Part shown: positions 6,882-23,522 of the stretch, in pieces
How the letters are laid out: each line of letters begins with the position of its first letter
Numbering within the stretch: position 1 is the first letter of the stretch
Assembly: GCA_019751815.1 (NCBI GenBank)
Contig: JAIEMW010000004.1
Location: forward strand, 229,933-293,932
DNA length: 64,000 nt
Direction: 5' to 3'
Origin: Cyanobacteriota bacterium
GTDB lineage: Bacteria; Cyanobacteriota; Vampirovibrionia; Vampirovibrionales; Vampirovibrionaceae
The notes under the pieces: generated by a model
The model's input: only the letters and a program-made list of their open reading frames with translations
Told to the model about the DNA's origin: nothing
Database searches by the model: none
Program-made: the position numbers and the translations under genes

Positions 6882-7027
6882 GGTGATACTATCCTCTTTT
6901 TGGTTACCTGACTGTTTTAGCCTGTCGATTGTAGCACCGTTCTAATTCCACAAAAAGGGCAGGCAAAAAGCGTGGGCACAAAAATACTTGCCCAGGTTTT
7001 TATAACTCTGCAAGCACTTTCTACAAC

Positions 7028-7834
7028 ATGTCAGAGATCGAAACACCGATGGTCCTAACAGGCAACCCAAACATAAGCTCCACATATTTTACCAGCCCCT
7101 TCCCGGCCAGACCCGGTTACACTGGCTACTACCCAGGGGGGTATTATCCGGGATTGCAAACGGTCCAAGCTGCGCCAGTCCTGAAAAGCCCGCCTGAAAT
7201 CGAGTATGCCAAAATCCTCTTGCAGCAAATTCAGCATTTACCAGGCGATGAAGCTTATTTACGGCAACTCGGGGTAGATATTCTCTTTCAAAACGGGATG
7301 GAAGCCGCCCGTCTGATTGCCAGTAAAAATATTCACGTGGATTTTGGTGATATGGGAGATAGTTTGGCCCATGCCCATTGGGAGAAAGAGACCAACCGGA
7401 TCATCATTAACCAAAAATACCGGGGCGATTTTTCAAGACCCACCCTGTATGCCATCTCTGAGGCGATCTATCACGAAGCAGGCCACGCGGCCCGGCTGGG
7501 GGATGATCAGAGTTCTCTCCAAGAAGAAATTAATTGTCTGGCCCTCAATACGCTGGCTCACCGGTTTCACCTGGCCACCGATCCCAGTTATGTTCAAACA
7601 GTCAGTACTTCTCGGCTTATTTCTGACGGGGTAGCCCTGTACAACCGACTATTTTTTGATGCCGACCCGAGCAAGCAGGCCCTGGTGAGACGGGTGATTG
7701 AAAAATACGGTGAACTCCCCCCGGAAAGTCCAGATCACCGAGTTCCGCTGACTGCTAGCACCGTACCACTGACAGATCGGGTATTGCGCCAGATGAAAAA
7801 CCAGAATGGCTTAGTATTGAATCAGCAGGCCTGA
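7028..7834 (+). CDS. Putative HEAGH zinc metallopeptidase, unassigned family
   Basis: 268 residues with a HExxH motif, YHEAGHAARLGDD (His149, Glu150, His153), inside a predicted helix, followed by Glu166/Glu167 that could supply the third zinc ligand as in gluzincins. No signal peptide, lipobox or membrane segment is visible, so it appears cytosolic. The first 55 residues are Pro/Tyr/Gly-rich and probably disordered. LLQQIQHLP at 64-72 recurs in the MshEN-domain protein at 2412. I do not recognise the family. The HIT gene follows after 18 bases on the same strand, so the two may be co-transcribed. Peptidase activity is inferred only from the motif. Confidence 0.6.
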   Translation: MSEIETPMVLTGNPNISSTYFTSPFPARPGYTGYYPGGYYPGLQTVQAAPVLKSPPEIEYAKILLQQIQHLPGDEAYLRQLGVDILFQNGMEAARLIASKNIHVDFGDMGDSLAHAHWEKETNRIIINQKYRGDFSRPTLYAISEAIYHEAGHAARLGDDQSSLQEEINCLALNTLAHRFHLATDPSYVQTVSTSRLISDGVALYNRLFFDADPSKQALVRRVIEKYGELPPESPDHRVPLTASTVPLTDRVLRQMKNQNGLVLNQQA

Positions 7835-8635: not shown

Positions 8636-10000
8636 CTAGAACAGCAAGCGGAACAGGGTGAAGCGTCCGTTGAGCTTTTTGGAGAATTGCTTGAGATTTT
8701 CTGTGGTCTCACGCGTATCCTTCACAATCCCCTTCAGATCTTTCCCGTCATCCGCTGACAGCTGCTCCACATGATCCAACACCTTGGACAGTTTGGTGAG
8801 TGACCCGTTCAACTGGGTCACACTGTTATCGAGGCGGCTTTGAAGTTGCTTATCTTCGGCAGTGTGTTTAAGCATCGATACCAACTCAGACGAGTTCTTG
8901 GCGGTATCTCGCGAGAGGGCAATGGTTTCTTTGAGCGCTGGATCTCGCATAATTTCTGCCAACGCCTTGGTTGATTGCTGAACAGAGGTGGCGGTCTCGA
9001 GCAAGTCCTTCTTCAGGTTGGGATCCCCAATCAGACCGTTCACATTTTGGCTGATCTGAATCAAATTTTTAGACAACCCGTCACTGGTCTTCACCAATTG
9101 TTCCAGATCGTGCCCAGCGCCCTTAAACAATTGATTGGCCGAATCCAAGACTTCTGTCGCTCGGGCCGTCAGGATTTCCGTGTTTTTGAGGGTGCCGTTG
9201 AGAGTCGCAATCGTCTCATCCGATAGCAGTTCATTGATTTTATCGTTGGTCAGTCTGAGGGCCTCAGCCGATTCGAGCTGAATCTCTAAGAATTTTTTAA
9301 TCCGAAGCGGGTTTTCAATCGTAAAGGCCAGGTTTTTATCCGGTAGGCGAAGAACATCTTCGACCTTACGGGGCAAAATGCGGAGATAATACTGCTGCTG
9401 ATTGGACAGAGCCAACTCAAAAATGGGATCCACGGGGAGTTCTGACCCAGGGCGTGTGATACGGTACGAGAGTTTATGACGGATCAAATTATCGTCCCGA
9501 AAGGTTTCGACCCGCTCCACCCGGCCCACATCCACCAGGCCCTCTTGATACAGAAACTTGACGGGAATGCCTGCTTTGATTGTTTGGGTGGGCATTTTAA
9601 AGGTGGTAAGCAAGATTTCTCGAAGCTGAGGCGGTGTGATTTCCAGGAATTTTTCGCCAATAATACCGGACTGCTGAATAGAAAGCTGAGAGCCTTTAGG
9701 AACTTTGATTTCTGGGGTATTGATCGTGAATTTGACGGCCACATAATATTTACCGTCTTTTCGGGTGGGCTGAATTGTATCAATAAAGCCAATGCGAATC
9801 CCCATAATCTGGACTGCAGCACCTTCTCTCATGCCGTCCACGTCCTGAAAGAAAACCGTATAGGTATCCCCGGTGGTTAATCCTCGTCCGCGCAGCCAAA
9901 TCATCACAAAAACCAGTAGAAGCACACTCACCAAAGCCAACAAGCCTACTTTAACTGTGGCACTTCGTCGCTTCATCAGGGTTTCAATTGATCGGGGCAT
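8636..10000 (-). CDS. mlaD: MCE-domain lipid transport protein (MlaD-like)
   Basis: 454 residues. An N-terminal membrane anchor (about 15-36) is followed by an MCE domain (about 45-125: FFQDVDGMREGAAVQIMGIR, then GIIGEKFLEI), the substrate-binding module of Mla lipid ABC transporters. A long, mostly helical C-terminal region (about 220-440) with heptad-like patterns should extend into the periplasm, as in the longer cyanobacterial/plastid TGD2-type proteins rather than the short E. coli MlaD (183 residues). AGGATAATGT places a Shine-Dalgarno six bases before the ATG. Last gene of the ubiA-mlaE-mlaF-mlaD operon. Lipid substrate unknown. Confidence 0.88.
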   Translation of the reverse strand: MPRSIETLMKRRSATVKVGLLALVSVLLLVFVMIWLRGRGLTTGDTYTVFFQDVDGMREGAAVQIMGIRIGFIDTIQPTRKDGKYYVAVKFTINTPEIKVPKGSQLSIQQSGIIGEKFLEITPPQLREILLTTFKMPTQTIKAGIPVKFLYQEGLVDVGRVERVETFRDDNLIRHKLSYRITRPGSELPVDPIFELALSNQQQYYLRILPRKVEDVLRLPDKNLAFTIENPLRIKKFLEIQLESAEALRLTNDKINELLSDETIATLNGTLKNTEILTARATEVLDSANQLFKGAGHDLEQLVKTSDGLSKNLIQISQNVNGLIGDPNLKKDLLETATSVQQSTKALAEIMRDPALKETIALSRDTAKNSSELVSMLKHTAEDKQLQSRLDNSVTQLNGSLTKLSKVLDHVEQLSADDGKDLKGIVKDTRETTENLKQFSKKLNGRFTLFRLLF

Positions 10001-15787: not shown

Positions 15788-17884
15788 GTGGCCAGAAAGA
15801 CGCCGATTGAACGTTACCGCAACATAGGTATTGCCGCCCACATTGACGCAGGAAAAACCACCACCACTGAGCGGATTTTGTACTACTCCGGGAAAATTCA
15901 CAAAATTGGTGAAGTTCACGAAGGGACTGCCGTTACCGACTGGATGGAACAAGAGCGTGAACGGGGTATTACCATTACCTCTGCCGCGATCACAACATTC
16001 TGGAAAAACCACCAGATCAACATTATCGACACCCCCGGCCACGTTGATTTCACCATCGAAGTAGAGCGCTCTTTGCGTGTTTTAGACGGTGTGGTTGCTG
16101 TTTTCTGTGCCGTTGGTGGGGTTCAATCTCAATCTGAAACCGTCTGGCGCCAAGCCAACCGTTATATGGTTCCTCGGATGGTGTTTGTGAACAAGATGGA
16201 CCGCACCGGTGCTCGTTTCGACCGTGTGGTGGATCAGATCAAGACCCGTTTGGGTGCCAATGCTCACCCGATTCAGCTGCCGATTGGTGCTGAAGACCAA
16301 TTCACTGGGGTGGTGGATCTGATGGACAACTGTGCCTACATCTACCAGAACGATATCGGGACAGAAGTCGAAAAATCTGAGATTCCAGCCGATTACGTTG
16401 AAGCGGCCAAAGTCGCCCGGGAATCCCTGATTGAAGCCATTGTGGAAACCGATGACGCCCTGATGGAAAAATACCTGAACGGGGAAGAAGTTTCTACGGA
16501 AGCCCTGAAAAAAGCACTGCGCAAAGCGGTTTGCGATGTGAAAATTGTGCCAGTTACTTGCGGTACTGCCTTTAAGAACAAAGGGGTTCAGCTGTTACTG
16601 GATGCCATTATTGATTACCTGCCCTCACCGATTGAAGTGCCCCCCATTCAAGGCCTCAAGCGTGATGGTACGCCAGTAATCCGCAAGAGCGATGACAAAG
16701 AACCCTTTGCTGCACTTGCTTTCAAGATTATGACCGATCCCTACGTCGGCCGACTTACCTTCTGCCGAGTCTATAGCGGTCACCTCGATGCGGGTAGCTA
16801 CGTCTACAACGCCACCAAAGACAACAAGGAACGGGTCAGCCGCTTAATCCAGATGGAATCCAGCGACCGTATTGAGATTCCTGAAGTGAACTCTGGGGAT
16901 ATCTTCGCGGTGGTTGGTCTGAAAAACACCACCACGGGTGACACCCTCTGTTTGGAAAATGATCCGGTCATTCTGGAATCGATTCACATTCCTGAGCCCG
17001 TGATTGAGGTTGCCATTGAACCAAAAACCAAGGCCGATCAAGAGAAACTCTCCAATTCCTTGTCCAAATTGGCTGAAGAAGATCCCACCTTCCGCGTCCG
17101 AGTCGATGAGGAAACGGGTCAGACCGTCATTGCCGGGATGGGCGAACTTCACTTGGAAATTATTGTTGACCGTCTGCTGCGGGAATTTAAAGTGGATGCC
17201 AACGTCGGGAAACCACAGGTGGCTTACCGTGAAACCATCACCAAGACCGTTGAGATTGAAGGCAAGTACATCCGTCAATCGGGTGGTCGGGGTCAGTACG
17301 GTCACGTCTGGCTGCGCCTGGAGCCCCAAGAGCAAGGTGCTGGCTTCACCTTTGAGAACAAGATTGTCGGTGGTGCCATTCCCAAAGAATTCATCAACCC
17401 GGTTGGTAAAGGGATTGAAGAGGCTATGCAGGGCGGTGTTATCGCTGGCTACGAGCTGATCGATCTGAAAGCCACCCTCTTTGACGGTAGCTACCACGAT
17501 GTTGACTCAAGCGAGATGGCCTTTAAGATTGCCGGTAGTATGGCCCTGAAAGCCGGGGTGCCCAAAGCAGGCCCGCAATTGTTAGAGCCTGTGATGAAAG
17601 TGGAAATCGAAGTGCCTGAAGACTTCCTGGGCGATGTGATTGGGGATCTCTCCAGCCGTCGTGGACGGGTTGAAGGCATGGAGCCAATTGAAGGCACTGG
17701 GACTCAGAAAATCCGGGCTATGGTGCCGCTCTCTGAGATGTTTGGCTATGCCACCGATATCCGCAGCAAGACCCAAGGCCGAGGCACTTTCTCGATGGAG
17801 TTTGAGCACTACGAGCCAATGCCAAACAACATTGCTGAGCCGCTGATCGCGAAATTTAAAGGTCAAATGGCCCAAACCACGTAA
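15788..17884 (+). CDS. fusA: Translation elongation factor G
   Basis: 698 residues, full-length EF-G, the ribosome-translocating GTPase. G1 [16 protein letters not shown]2 region [10 protein letters not shown]3 DTPGHVDF and G4 NKMD are all present, followed by domains II-V ending [15 protein letters not shown]. The start is GTG, seven bases after an AAGGAAAACAGACC purine tract, and the family N-terminus ([14 protein letters not shown]) begins at once. In most bacteria tuf follows directly; here fusA ends two bases from an oppositely transcribed deaminase-like gene and tuf lies 10.5 kb away. Confidence 0.98.
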
Positions 17885-17886
17885 AT

Positions 17887-19428
17887 TTATAAATCACTGG
17901 TTTTTGTATATTGCACCGGGAGAAACTCCCGCAATGTCCGAACCTCTATACGAGCCTGAATGCGACCTCTCTCTGGGGTCGCATTTGTTTTTTTGTCTTT
18001 AGTGTTTTTGTCTATCAGGGCAATCAAGATATCATCCCGCCCAGAGAGCTTCCACAAGGAGGTCAGGCTCTCATAGCGCGGTAGCTTGTGGTCAGTATCG
18101 CTGTAATAGGCTACCATGGCCAAGTCTTTCGCGGGTTTTTTATCGGATTTTTTCTCGCTGTTTTTCTCCATCGCGACTGGGTGAGAGAGCCCCATCAGCC
18201 CATAAGCAACCGTAAAGACCAGTCGCAGGACGTGGGACAACACACGCTTTAAGGGCTGCCAAATCGTCGAATTGTGAAGTGTTTTTTGCCACTGAGCAAA
18301 GGCTTCTTCCAGCTTTTGATACTGCGGTGGGCTGAGGGCTTTGGAAACCGCATCCATATCTGCCGATAAGTAAACACTGTGCTTAGGATAGAGACTGGCG
18401 CCCCGTGTCACAGAATAAGGATGACCCTCTTGGGGTCGATTCTCTTTCTTGTCCTTGCTTTCAGCAGGCATCATCAATACAGAAGCCCCTGTTTGAATTT
18501 CAGCCCTCACCCCACGGTCAAACGCATTGCCTTCTTCCCAGGCTTTACGGGCTTCCTCAAGCATATCTCGTGTGAGTTTTGCTGGGGTGTATCCGGGATA
18601 GTCTTTTTTTAGCGTGGCCATTCGGGTGTTAAACACGGCTTTCGCTTGCTCTGAAAACGCCACCGGCAGTGCGCGAAGCGAAGAGTCGATTCGAGAAGCA
18701 TCGGGTGTCGAATGATCTGCTTGTTTCGCTCTGTCCTGAAAAAACGGGAGTACAGAGGCCATGGGCTTCACCACCACTTCCAATCGACCGCCCGGGGCCT
18801 TGCGGCGAAGATAAATCATCTGGGTGTCGGGATGCACCACCGGGTAGGCCGCCTCAAAGCTTTCCAGACACACCTGGCAAGGAGAGGCATTCATCCATTT
18901 GGGGTTTAAAAAATCAAAGCCCACCACCGCCATGGCATCCACCCGGGGTTGTTTGTCTTTCAGTTCACTAGGCCAGCGCTTAAACACTTGTTTCAGTGTC
19001 GAGCGCTCAGCGCAGATAAAATTATCCGGGCCAAAGGCGATGTTGGTATCGGCCAGAATCCGGTGAGGTTTTGGCTGATGGTGTTTGTTTTTGCTATTGC
19101 CGGTGTGAACCCAGACACTGGCACCCCAGCTTCCGCCCACATCTCGGTTTCGTTTGATTTTCATCGACTGGTGAGCTTGCAAGAAGGCGCTTTTCAGTAA
19201 ACGTTTGACAGTTTCGGGCTTTACAGCCTCAGGGCGAACGGCTTCTGATGTGCCCTCATACACGATGGGCAGGGCGAGTAGTTGCTCTAGCAGCGCTGAG
19301 GCACGAGGCATTGCCGTGGTTTTATCCACTCCGTGGTGATGGGGGACAGCGCGATCACGATTATGGCGATCAAGGCTAGCACCGGCAAACGCGGGGAGGC
19401 GATTGGAAATTAAAGGAGACAAAAGCAC
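17887..19428 (-). CDS. Cytidine-deaminase-fold protein B, unknown substrate
   Basis: 513 residues. The N-terminal half has a zinc-deaminase signature: TNIAFGPDNFICAERSTLKQ (Cys ligand and catalytic Glu in CAE) and SPCQVCLESFEA (PCxxC), as in tetrameric cytidine deaminases. The C-terminal half repeats part of the fold without zinc ligands (MVAYYSDTDHKLPRYESL ... DDILIALI ... VRTLREFLPVQY) and aligns with the ends of the two paralogues at 19570 and 21074. It also carries unique insertions, including a hydrophobic stretch around LSHVLRLVFTVAYGLMGL. The near-N-terminal FAGASL recurs as FSGASL in the 19570 protein. The GTG start is uncertain. Cytidine/cytosine chemistry is inferred from motif only; the biological role is unknown. 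Confidence 0.65.
   Translation of the reverse strand: MLLSPLISNRLPAFAGASLDRHNRDRAVPHHHGVDKTTAMPRASALLEQLLALPIVYEGTSEAVRPEAVKPETVKRLLKSAFLQAHQSMKIKRNRDVGGSWGASVWVHTGNSKNKHHQPKPHRILADTNIAFGPDNFICAERSTLKQVFKRWPSELKDKQPRVDAMAVVGFDFLNPKWMNASPCQVCLESFEAAYPVVHPDTQMIYLRRKAPGGRLEVVVKPMASVLPFFQDRAKQADHSTPDASRIDSSLRALPVAFSEQAKAVFNTRMATLKKDYPGYTPAKLTRDMLEEARKAWEEGNAFDRGVRAEIQTGASVLMMPAESKDKKENRPQEGHPYSVTRGASLYPKHSVYLSADMDAVSKALSPPQYQKLEEAFAQWQKTLHNSTIWQPLKRVLSHVLRLVFTVAYGLMGLSHPVAMEKNSEKKSDKKPAKDLAMVAYYSDTDHKLPRYESLTSLWKLSGRDDILIALIDKNTKDKKTNATPERGRIQARIEVRTLREFLPVQYTKTSDL
17959..17994 (+). terminator. Intrinsic terminator of the str operon, inside an antisense gene
   Basis: AATGCGACC (17959-17967) pairs perfectly with GGTCGCATT (17977-17985), followed by TTTGTTTTTTTG. 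It is oriented to stop fusA transcription about 75-110 bases after its stop codon, and it lies entirely within the C-terminal coding region of the minus-strand deaminase-like gene. Confidence 0.85.
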
Positions 19429-19492
19429 CCAGAAAAAACCTCTAGCATTTTGAATCTGTCACTGAAAAAACCAAGCCCGCCTCGAAATTGTC

Positions 19493-19528
19493 ACAAAAAA
19501 CAACGCCCTCTCAATTTTAAGGGCGTTG
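19493..19528 (-). terminator. Intrinsic terminator of deaminase-fold gene A
   Basis: On the minus strand CAACGCCC and GGGCGTTG (19521-19528 and 19501-19508) form an 8-bp stem with a 12-base loop, followed by TTTTTTG. It ends the transcript of the gene at 19570-20955, so the next gene (B) probably has its own promoter. Confidence 0.9.
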
Positions 19529-19569
19529 TTTAACGTTATCGTTATTTTGTTTTCCGCTTTTGGCGATGT

Positions 19570-20955
19570 TTACGGAGTGGTCCCTGAAGTGCTGGTACCA
19601 GATCCTGTAGCATTCCCTCCTGCTACCGCAAAAGCTTTCTTCCCGCTGAGATCTTTGGAAGAGGTGTAAATGTAGGTCATATAATCCTGAATCGTGCGGA
19701 CCTGCAGTGTCTCATTCTCAATCACCACCACCAGCGTATCCACCCCGCCGCGGTCTTGAGAAAGCCGGCCCAAATTGGGGATATGCGGGACATTGTCATC
19801 ACCGTAGTAAGCCAGCGCTTGGAGTTGCGGGGGTTGCGCGCCGCCTTTTTTGGCTGCAGAGACCAGCCCAATGTAAGCGGTTCCCAAATCGGCGTCCAAG
19901 GGCCAACGACGACTCCAATCCATCCGCTCAGAAGACGTAGACTCTAAATTACCTTGCCCGTCTCTCACCAAAACAGCTGCACCCAAGGGTTTTTTAGACA
20001 ATTCAGCATAACCGCTTGTCTTGTTGCCGAGATACGCCACTTGGGCCTCTGCCATTAACTGAGCCAATTGTCTGGTCTGAAGTCCTTTTGCAGCCAAGGC
20101 CACTTGGGCTTTGGCAGAGACATTCACAGGCAAGCCCAATACTGAAGGTTGTGTTGTGAGAGAAGGCTGTTGTTTACCCCAAAACGGCAGGTAATCTGCC
20201 AAGGTTTCCACACGCAGCGCAAACGCACCGGATTGCGGATCTTTCTCCAGGCTGAAGACCTGTGTTTCGGGAGAAAAATATGTCTGTGTGGTCATCCAGC
20301 CTTGACAGTCTGCACAGTACTCCATCGCGCTTCGATCGGTGCCAACCGGTTTGTAACTGGAAGAGTACATCCGGGTCACTTTCATCCCTTGGACCAGACC
20401 CTCTTTTTTGGCAGGGTCCTGCACTGCCGCCTGAACCGTGGGGACATCCATCCTATCCAGTGCCTGGTTAAAGGCGTTGGTCATCGCAGAGCGCTCCCCG
20501 CAGAAGATGTTATCGCGGGTATGCTCAATGTTGGTGCCCAAACCAAAGGTGCCATTGGCCATTTCAAAGCCGCTGTTATAGTAGCGAAGAGAGAAATTAC
20601 CCACTGCCTGATTTTTAAGTCCGTGTTCATAGGTTTGCAACACTTTGCCAATATGCTGCGCCTTATCCCGTTCAATTTCTGCAATTTGTGTCGGGTTCAG
20701 ATGCGGGCTGGTCACTCGCAGTGTGACTTGAGCAGGATCAATACTGTAACGCTGCAGCAGCACCGGAATGGCTTCAGCACCAAAACGAAGTTGAGGGGCA
20801 AGAACTTTGGCGTTCTGGCTGAAGGCACTGGGGGTAAAGACCTGGCCTGCTGGAGGCTGCGGCAGTGAATATTTCCGAGGATTGACTAAAGAAGCACCGG
20901 AAAACGCCGCATTAAACCGCACACGCGGCAATGATACGCTCATGGATGTACTCAT
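19570..20955 (-). CDS. Cytidine-deaminase-fold protein A, two-domain, unknown substrate
   Basis: 461 residues. The catalytic-type domain has TNIEHTRDNIFCGERSAM (Asn/Glu of the ribose-binding NxE motif, zinc Cys152, catalytic Glu154) and EYCADCQGWM (Cys214, Cys217), i.e. all three zinc ligands of cytidine deaminases, but 60 residues apart instead of about 35. The second half (about 300-432) reads like a degenerate deaminase repeat: KKPLGAAVLVRDGQ, then SSERMDWS, and IPNLGRL where a PCxxC would be. This mirrors E. coli Cdd's catalytic plus inactive halves. The tail is Gly/Ser/Thr-rich. AGAGG upstream supports the ATG. No signal peptide. Family and substrate are unrecognised. Confidence 0.65.
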   Translation of the reverse strand: MSTSMSVSLPRVRFNAAFSGASLVNPRKYSLPQPPAGQVFTPSAFSQNAKVLAPQLRFGAEAIPVLLQRYSIDPAQVTLRVTSPHLNPTQIAEIERDKAQHIGKVLQTYEHGLKNQAVGNFSLRYYNSGFEMANGTFGLGTNIEHTRDNIFCGERSAMTNAFNQALDRMDVPTVQAAVQDPAKKEGLVQGMKVTRMYSSSYKPVGTDRSAMEYCADCQGWMTTQTYFSPETQVFSLEKDPQSGAFALRVETLADYLPFWGKQQPSLTTQPSVLGLPVNVSAKAQVALAAKGLQTRQLAQLMAEAQVAYLGNKTSGYAELSKKPLGAAVLVRDGQGNLESTSSERMDWSRRWPLDADLGTAYIGLVSAAKKGGAQPPQLQALAYYGDDNVPHIPNLGRLSQDRGGVDTLVVVIENETLQVRTIQDYMTYIYTSSKDLSGKKAFAVAGGNATGSGTSTSGTTP

Positions 20956-21073
20956 GAATGAACCTCTCTCTGGGTTAAATCTCTCACTATCTATTTACAC
21001 ACACACATTATTTCCGGGGCTTACCCCTACTGAGACAAAAATAGTATAAGGGGTGGTCAGAGACAAGCCCATG

Positions 21074-22249
21074 TCATTGTTTATTTACAGAAGAAGCGTA
21101 GACAAAGGGCAGTTCCTCATTCAGGGTACGGACGGCAATGACGGGTTGATTTTGATTGTTTTGGCGAAAGGCGGGGCGAATCATGAGCGTATCCAAGCCC
21201 CCCAAACCTTGAGACAAGCGGCCCAAAGAAGGAATTTCCGGCGGGGTAGCGTATCCCATATAGGCCAAGGCGACGACGCGAGAGGAAGTCTCGTTTTTCA
21301 TCTCCTGACTTTTCAGTGCCTGACTTAAAGCCGCATGGGCCGCCGTTAAATCTGCCGCAGAGGGCCAACGCGGGGTCCAATGCAGTTCTGGGACACTCTC
21401 TATATATGCCGTTCCGGCCACATTTTTCACCATCGCCGCGACAGAAGGCATCTGGGTTTTGGATACAACCCCTTGTGCCTGCATTAACAGATTTCTACAG
21501 TCATCTTCGCTTATTAAAAGCCTGGCCATTGCAGCCTTTGCTTTGTCTGAGACGTCCAGTGGGAGTTTCTCTAGCAACGCTGTTGTGATACACCCGGCGT
21601 TTATTTTGCTCTGGCGGGTTTGTCCCTCGTAATCCTTCAACACCCGCACACGGAGCTTGTACGTACCCGTATTTGCCTCTTTTTCTAGCGTAAGTACCTG
21701 GGTTTCTGGAGAAAAAAACGATTGTTTGGCCATCCAGTTTTGGCAATCGGCGCAATAGACACCGACACGGTCTGTGCCAATTGGTTTAGCACTGGTGGAG
21801 TACAAGCGTTTTACCCGGTTCTCTTTCAGTAGCGTCGTCGCTCCGCGTTTTAATTTTCCCAGTGTCGCTTTATCCAGGGCTTGATTCCAGGCCATCACCA
21901 GGGCAGAACGCTCCCCGCAGAAAACTTCTTACCGGTCCAGCTCCAAATTGGTCCCCAGTCCGGTCGCCCCGTTTTGTAATTCGACCGTTGTGGCGTAAAA
22001 CCGCCCAGAATGGTTACCCAATAAGGCATTTTTCTGGGCATGCTCATTGGCCTGTAATAAGCGACCAATGATACGGGGTTTATCAGCCTCAATGGTCTCC
22101 AAATCAGCCTGGGTGACAAAAGGACTTTCTGTAAAGACCGTGACTGTCTTGGGATCAATGGCATAGCGCCGCAACAGCCTGAGCGCAGGCTCTGCACCAA
22201 AGGTCAAGAAATCAGTCCGAGACACGCAGGCGGGGTTCAGTCGAAGCAT
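21074..22249 (-). pseudogene. Cytidine-deaminase-fold gene C, interrupted by an in-frame TAA
   Basis: The third paralogue. Upstream part: TFGAEPALRLLRRYAIDPKT ... GLGTNLELDR; then a TAA at 21931-21929; then, in the same frame, EVFCGERSALVMAWNQAL ... VYCADCQNWM ... and the degenerate C-terminal half ending LNEELPFVYASSV. Alignment with protein A puts the stop at the Asp of TRDNIFCGER, so one codon separates an otherwise complete deaminase-like protein of about 391 residues. No frameshift is needed. The start is taken as the ATG at 22249, ten bases after AGGA; 22258 is the alternative. It could be a nonsense pseudogene, a sequencing error or stop-codon readthrough. Confidence 0.7.
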
Positions 22250-22352
22250 CCGAATCATTTCCTGGAAGTTCACACACACTGCTACTAATTTAGCATAAAG
22301 CGTTGGCATAAAGAGTTTTTGAATAAAATAACTTGTTTTATGATGGTGGGTG

Positions 22353-23522
22353 ATGAACCAGCAATCCCCCATACAAAACCAAAATATTTTAGCCCAAAAC
22401 AGTTTAACCCAAGCCGCGTTAGGCACTCCGGAGCGTCCTTTTTTAATGATTCCGGGCCCGACGCCGCTGCCTGAGGCTGTTCGAGCCGTTTTGGGAGAAC
22501 CGGCCATTGGTCACCGCAGTGCCGAATTTAAAACTGTACTGGCCCGAGTCTTTGCCGGGTTACAGTGGGCATTTCAAACCCAAAACCCTGTCCTGATGTA
22601 CACTGCCAGTGCCACCGGGGCGATGGAAGGGGCGTTTCAAAATACCCTCAACCCCGGCGATCAGATTGTTGTTTTGTGCTGCGGGGTGTTTAGCGCTCGT
22701 TGGGCGGATATGGGCGAAAGCCTGGGCCTTCAGGTCACGCGCATTTCTGTCCCTGCAGGAGAGCCCAACACCGTTGAATCACTCGAAGCCGTCTTGACAG
22801 CAGATACGGCCCGTAAAATTAAGGCCGTGGTGCTTACCCACAGCGAGACCTCGACCGGCGTCTTAAACCCGCTGGAAGCAATGGCCAAAGTGGTGAGAGC
22901 CCACGGCGCCCTGTGCATTGTTGATGCCGTCACCAGTTTACTGGCCACGCCTTTTTACACAGATACTTGGGACTTAGATTTGGTTGTCAGCGGCAGCCAA
23001 AAAGGCTTTATGATACCACCAGGCCTTGCCTTTTTGAGTGTAGGACCAAGAGCCTGGGAAGCTTTTGAGCGCTGCACACATCCAGGGTATTACTTCAACT
23101 TTGAACGAAACAAAAAAGCCCAGCAGGACAACAATACGGCTTATACCCCAGCCACCCCGCAATGTTTGGCGCTTGATGTTGCCCTTTCACTGATGCAACA
23201 AGAAGGACTGGAAGCCATTTGGGCCAGACATCAGAAGCTTCAAACCCAGATTCGAGATGGGGTAGAGGCCCTGGGGCTTTCTTGTCTGGTCCCTCATACA
23301 CAGTATGCCAGTACTGCCGTGACTGCTGTTTACCCGCCTGTTGGGGTTTCGGTCTCTAGTATTCGCACCTATATCAAACAACATTACGCGATGGCCATTG
23401 CCGATGGACAGAAAGAACTGAAAGGCAAAATTTTCAGGATAGGCCACCTGGGACATATTTCCAGTACCGATGCAGAACGGGTGCTGGGCGCCCTTGAAGC
23501 GTTTTTAAAAGAAGATCGCTAG
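22353..23522 (+). CDS. Class V aminotransferase (serine/alanine-glyoxylate type)
   Basis: 389 residues, PLP enzyme of the alanine-glyoxylate/serine-glyoxylate/serine-pyruvate group. LMIPGPTPLPEAV opens the fold; YTASATGAMEGAFQN binds cofactor phosphate; VDAVTSLLATPF has the PLP-ring Asp; VVSGSQKGFMIPPGLAF holds the Schiff-base Lys in SQK. RIGHLG near the C-terminus supplies the substrate-carboxylate Arg. The gene is 18 bases upstream of serA, so they likely act together in serine metabolism. In that setting it may use phosphohydroxypyruvate or glyoxylate; sequence alone cannot decide. ATG at 22353 is used; a GTG directly before it is also possible. Confidence 0.88.
   Translation: MNQQSPIQNQNILAQNSLTQAALGTPERPFLMIPGPTPLPEAVRAVLGEPAIGHRSAEFKTVLARVFAGLQWAFQTQNPVLMYTASATGAMEGAFQNTLNPGDQIVVLCCGVFSARWADMGESLGLQVTRISVPAGEPNTVESLEAVLTADTARKIKAVVLTHSETSTGVLNPLEAMAKVVRAHGALCIVDAVTSLLATPFYTDTWDLDLVVSGSQKGFMIPPGLAFLSVGPRAWEAFERCTHPGYYFNFERNKKAQQDNNTAYTPATPQCLALDVALSLMQQEGLEAIWARHQKLQTQIRDGVEALGLSCLVPHTQYASTAVTAVYPPVGVSVSSIRTYIKQHYAMAIADGQKELKGKIFRIGHLGHISSTDAERVLGALEAFLKEDR

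Follow-up and report, generated by a model that had tools for sequence, protein, structure and literature searches.

What are the three homologous reading frames that lie between fusA and an aminotransferase gene in a non-photosynthetic cyanobacterial relative of the class Vampirovibrionia, and, if they are relatives of cytidine deaminase (Cdd), a nucleoside-salvage enzyme, what might they act upon? The window (the whole stretch of 64,000 nucleotides that was analyzed) carries rpsL (14774), rpsG (15231) and fusA (15788) on one side of the frames and tuf (28366) on the other, placing them, as originally predicted, inside the str-S10 region. The gene order is fusA (15788-17884) – A – B – C – aminotransferase gene (22350-23522); A, B and C together occupy 17887-22249 and all are read from the reverse strand. 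Promoter and terminator counts across the region were at chance level only. The features are as follows (the evidence is given in brackets):

17887-19428, reverse strand: gene A, 513 aa, two-domain Cdd-like protein (sequence; weak PF00383 match, E 0.06; member of the family profile)
19003-19014, reverse strand: CAER codons of A (sequence)
18868-18879, reverse strand: CxxC codons of A, PCQVC (sequence)
19570-20955, reverse strand: gene B, 461 aa, two-domain Cdd-like protein, the best-preserved copy (sequence, profile, hhalign, AlphaFold2, Foldseek)
20788-20955, reverse strand: residues 1-56 of B, N-terminal tail with F-x-G/A motifs (pLDDT mostly below 50)
20170-20694, reverse strand: domain 1 of B, residues 88-262, putative catalytic Cdd domain (hhalign)
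20491-20502, reverse strand: C152-G-E154-R155 of B, predicted zinc cysteine, catalytic Glu and Arg56 equivalent (family conservation)
20305-20316, reverse strand: C214-x-x-C217 of B, two predicted zinc cysteines (family conservation)
19660-20133, reverse strand: domain 2 of B, residues 275-432, degenerate Cdd domain lacking zinc ligands (hhalign)
19903-19920, reverse strand: domain 2 loop of B, D346-W-S-R-R350-W351 (family conservation; aligns with the Cdd E-N-A-S-Y-G loop)
21074-22249, reverse strand: pseudogene C, homologue of B, 41 percent identity (in-frame stop; genome search; tree)
21929-21931, reverse strand: in-frame TAA of C, three codons ahead of CGER (21908-21919)

Translated with table 11, both A and B have normal frames and ends, which gave no reason to consider recoding of the TAA in C. 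C is a pseudogene as sequenced, a decayed third copy, because of the in-frame TAA just before CGER: it reads LELDR, stop, EVFCGERSA, the TAA cutting the N-terminal part off from the active site. The genome search reports the same lone stop. Beyond it the frame is open for 274 codons, which suggests either a recent loss or a sequencing error; the tree branch of C measures 1.15 against 0.63 for B. The original prediction of three tandem, same-strand paralogues of 390-513 residues therefore holds for the homology of the frames and for the lengths of A and B, the only intact copies, but not for C as an intact protein of 390 residues. The Cys-x-Glu motif followed by CxxC was read correctly: CAER and PCQVC in A, CGER and YCADC in B (where the P of P-C-x-x-C is Y), and the same letters in C beyond its stop, with 45, 62 and 55 residues, respectively, from the first motif to the second. 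The phrase KPVGTDR, proposed as common to the three, occurs in B and (as KPIGTDR) in C and is missing from A.

Scans of A, B and C against Pfam and NCBIfam reached no model at its cut-off, so that ordinary annotation would probably label them hypothetical; that they belong to no recognised family had been anticipated. Some members of the wider family do match TIGR01354 directly (E about 1e-8), although all those tested fall far below its curated cut-off of 113.65 bits (B scores 13.1 bits, the best members about 36). When a 25-member family profile was run against all PDB sequences it returned eleven cytidine deaminases with E-values between 3e-7 and 0.016, with a metagenomic Cdd (7zob) as best match; nothing but Cdds appeared below E 2, the next entry being a designed protein at E 2.1. 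In profile–profile alignments (hhalign) with 30 canonical Cdds from the same class, domain 1 reached 98.6 percent (P 7e-16) and domain 2 98.1 percent (P 8e-14), both nearly end to end; domain 1 against domain 2 gave 96.7 percent, where thirteen unrelated neighbour families used as controls gave 3.7 percent at most. AlphaFold2 models B with a whole-chain mean pLDDT of 82 and a pTM of 0.77, mostly confidently at residues 61-430, and the best Foldseek matches of this model in the PDB are cytidine deaminases, B. subtilis Cdd first (E 8.5e-6), in agreement with the deaminase fold that had been proposed.

Judged by profiles and predicted structure, then, A and B are relatives of cytidine deaminase, mainly of the homotetrameric type, and by the profile alignments each protein is a tandem duplication of the Cdd domain. 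The shared C-terminal region remarked upon originally is the second, degenerate deaminase domain, and it is this duplication that accounts for most of the extra length. The family is an undescribed variant of cytidine deaminase in which neither fold nor chemistry is new; our literature search found no paper on it. A relationship to TadA or RibD was considered and rejected: the family profile matches Cdds alone, and in the window's genome TadA (L037) has a gene of its own, as RibD probably does (L038, a third PF00383 protein). The same genome also encodes a 285-aa Cdd of the E. coli type (L039). A phage or defence gene was likewise rejected: searches of PADLOC, PHROGs, phages, plasmids and viral contigs came back empty, and the best viral structure match is only at E 0.036. 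Toxin deaminases gave no match, and the Imm42 match of one member (E 0.023) is at chance level.

The putative active site is best described from conservation over 54 family members, in the numbering of B. N142 is invariant (54/54); C152, C214 and C217 are each present in 53, E154 in 49, R155 in 52, and L256 and P257 in 52. Alignment with CDA_F14, from a study of metagenomic Cdds, equates these with Asn42, Cys53, Glu55, Arg56, Cys88, Cys91 and the C-terminal L-P. Most homologues thus retain the Cys-x-Glu and CxxC residues on which the original reading depended. The exceptions include four members of one genus (g6) that read CDLR and have lost the catalytic Glu. In CDA_F14, Tyr24 is a substrate contact and the ribose is held by Asn42 and Glu44; one neighbouring subunit contributes Ala46 and Tyr48 and another Phe126, and the beta3-alpha3 loop determines the substrate range of Cdds (PMC9897663). 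The equivalent of Tyr24 (position 124) is Arg in 34 of the 54 members; that of Glu44 (position 144) is still Glu in 16, among them B, whereas 35 have Asn there, and in A this sugar-binding Glu is replaced (N-I-A); that of Phe126 has been lost from domain 1. The zinc motifs are 44-69 residues apart, where the canonical Cdds of this class have 33-48. The longer spacing noted originally is thus confirmed, and the view, based on length and motif spacing, that these are not ordinary Cdds is supported. Part of the added length lies between the C-x-E-R helix and the next strand and part in the stretch ahead of CxxC, which in B holds KPVGTDR.

Domain 2 has no zinc ligands, and yet the aromatic residue lost from domain 1 has a counterpart here: a Phe126-like F/Y430 is found in 47/54 members, following P427 (48/54). 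Where Cdd has E-N-A-S-Y-G, domain 2 carries D-W-[TS]-[KR]-R-W, with R350 in 52/54 and W351 in 48/54. An aromatic kept in domain 2 and gone from domain 1 would be expected were domain 2 to stand in for a neighbouring subunit, a pocket role that is suggested by alignment, not geometry.

Comparison with known enzymes helps to place this arrangement. With the homotetrameric Cdds (TIGR01354; B. subtilis 1jtk/1ux1 and CDA_F14, 7zob) the family shares the fold, the three-Cys zinc site of C-x-E-R and P-C-x-x-C, the Asn42 and Arg56 (R155) equivalents and the C-terminal L-P motif. It differs in being duplicated within one chain of 390-513 aa with a zinc-less second copy, rather than a single-domain subunit of a homotetramer, in its longer motif spacing, in having mostly Arg at the Phe/Tyr24 position, and in the Asn that most members (although not B) have at that of Glu44. 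The E. coli-type enzymes (TIGR01355; 1ctt; L039) also combine a catalytic N-terminal and a zinc-less C-terminal domain in one chain; however, their zinc site is His-Cys-Cys (H-A-E) where the family has Cys at 152, the profile match is weaker (95 percent versus 98 percent for the homotetrameric type), and domain 2 of the family has a conserved D-W-x-x-R-W loop of its own. Whole-chain superposition on them is poor (Foldseek rmsd 17-19, and 18.7 over 399 columns for B against the dimeric 1ctt), which the alignment or the model may account for; domain packing in the modelled B may differ from that of dimeric Cdd. A two-domain Cdd in genomes of the bacterial family f8 (L072-L079), with both domains resembling the homotetrameric type, likewise joins an active to a degenerate domain, with E-L-L-P-like ends on both, but is about 300 aa long and far nearer canonical Cdd (TIGR01354 E about 1e-19). 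It coexists with the studied family in two genomes (G046 and G058) and is a possible intermediate architecture. Blasticidin S deaminase, which acts on a modified cytosine nucleoside, has a fold like that of the homotetrameric Cdds and its structure (2z3j) matches B at 7e-4; it is a single-domain protein and a weaker match than Cdd, and nothing here establishes the same substrate.

Members of the family were found in 45 of 382 genomes of the class Vampirovibrionia, and among 292 genomes sampled evenly across the phylum all carriers belong to that class, consistent with the lineage restriction predicted at the outset. An alignment of the family proved too diverse for contig scans and a gut subset was used instead: its motifs, which would miss members as divergent as B, identified 37 loci among 84,980 species, mostly labelled Candidatus Gastranaerophilales; a scan with a single protein gave no match. 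Among annotated neighbours, the recurrent ones are housekeeping genes. Within the window's bacterial family, fusA and/or the aminotransferase gene and serA flank the homologue in six genomes. In gut genomes rpsJ and the S10 genes come directly after the homologue in eight loci and no more than a few genes away in several others (names from sequence). Both placements lie at an edge of the str-S10 block and so point to vertical inheritance. Just upstream of the homologue in about half of the gut loci there is a pair of chromate-transporter-like half proteins (also named from sequence), seen in L119-L155, for example at L137:6436-6987 and 6983-7537. Two genomes of the window's bacterial family that do not have the gene (G001 and G004) offer no clean empty site, because the fusA–aminotransferase–serA order is also absent.

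The tree joins A to a homologue from another genus (G002; support 100/99) and B to C (99/94), with long branches and modest deep support. The lineage-specific expansion originally envisaged is thus not simply a local one, only B and C forming a local pair. Branch lengths of 0.4-1.7 mark the family as fast-evolving. Variation in form was also seen: the second homologue of G010 is split over two overlapping frames (L036:8081-8968 and 8950-9861) and is probably a frameshifted copy, and two homologues from family f8 (L023:8149-10296 and L024:7634-9322) are extended at the N terminus by roughly 120-270 residues relative to B.

The explanation that best accounts for these data, and one that we consider reasonably probable, is that of a Cdd-derived, duplicated family in which domain 1 catalyses, domain 2 completes the pocket and the substrate is not plain cytidine. 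Domain 1 would be a zinc hydrolase, its three cysteines holding the zinc, E154 shuttling protons and R155 tuning the zinc site, while N142 (together with E144 in B) would hold the sugar. The reaction that we infer for it is deamination of a cytosine-type nucleoside or of a close analogue. The zinc-less domain 2 would supply what a neighbouring subunit gives in tetrameric Cdd, namely the aromatic of Y430 and the rebuilt D-W-x-x-R-W loop, and two chains could assemble into a Cdd-like pseudo-tetramer. The substrate is probably something other than plain cytidine, such as a modified pyrimidine nucleoside, given the Arg in place of Phe/Tyr24, the longer stretch between the motifs and the presence of an ordinary Cdd in most carriers: a separate Cdd was found in 34 of the 37 searched, the exceptions being G014, whose weak fragment is not counted, and two genomes with no match (one of them incomplete). 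For most carriers this rules out a stand-in for a missing Cdd.

The same counts weigh on the view that A and B are ordinary cytidine or deoxycytidine deaminases, which add capacity for pyrimidine salvage on the substrates of Cdd. We think this unlikely, although A and B do have the full set of catalytic residues, the homology is specifically to Cdd and G010 has two family copies with no canonical Cdd detected; a second Cdd of the usual kind sits poorly with the separate enzyme in nearly all carriers checked, with a changed base-contacting residue and with the longer region between zinc motifs. Given fast evolution, the CDLR of one genus and broken copies in two genomes, some members may be dispensable or lack enzyme activity. 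That these features, with the missing zinc ligands of domain 2, reflect a pseudoenzyme or nucleoside-binding regulator throughout, the fold being retained for binding and catalysis lost or irrelevant, seems improbable: retention of E154 and the three zinc cysteines at the frequencies given above, across several bacterial families, would not be expected were catalysis useless. Least probable is an enzyme that deaminates RNA or DNA, either to edit it or as a toxin against competitors. Fast evolution, longer loops and translation genes alongside favour it indirectly, but the homology is to a free-nucleoside Cdd and not to TadA, APOBEC, DYW or toxin deaminases, the N-x-E/N sugar motif is retained, and the searches for defence, phage, plasmid and viral relatives were empty. 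RNA and DNA, which had been listed among the possible substrates, therefore find no positive support in this analysis.

The N-terminal tail of B deserves separate mention. It contains AAFSGASL and, just past residue 56, QLRFGAEA; F-x-G/A tails are seen at the start of B (20755-20955) and in homologues L026, L028, L103 and L104. Low-complexity tails of a similar kind, with F-x-G/A at the end, also open unrelated proteins of these genomes, for example SVSFGRAL (4-alpha-glucanotransferase), TPSFKGAN (a 5'-nucleotidase-like protein) and LHFAGKK (PRPP synthetase); such tails occur at L166:7568-8749, L180:2256-3908, L123:8475-10334, L154:7149-9032 and L177:7278-11078. Counted with a crude pattern, the N-terminal rate of the motif is 18/190 in G000, against 4-6 percent in internal windows, and 6/136 against 2/362 in G194; named gut loci show no N-terminal excess over internal windows by the same pattern. 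The tail is possibly a class-specific sorting tag. G000 also encodes two PRPP synthetases, of which one is ordinary (331 aa frame) and the other is longer and carries the F-x-G/A tail (loci L185, G000:C2:108264-108638, with the gene at L166:7568-8749, and L184, G000:C1:612734-613084), a pair that parallels the ordinary Cdd alongside the deaminase family. We regard as rather unlikely the more elaborate proposal of a class-specific family of duplicated Cdd derivatives that has moved to another substrate, such as a modified pyrimidine nucleoside, and is routed by a class-specific N-terminal F-x-G/A peptide that it has in common with other second-copy metabolic enzymes.

Under the favoured reading of a duplicated, Cdd-derived enzyme, the family is an added and unannotated branch of the cytidine deaminases. 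It provides a case of duplication in which one half lost its zinc and apparently became the partner that completes the pocket, with intact, Glu-less and broken copies all present within one bacterial class. It also offers targets in poorly known bacteria, the gut Gastranaerophilales included. Since nucleoside drugs can be substrates of bacterial cytidine deaminases, extra Cdd-like enzymes in gut bacteria are of interest.
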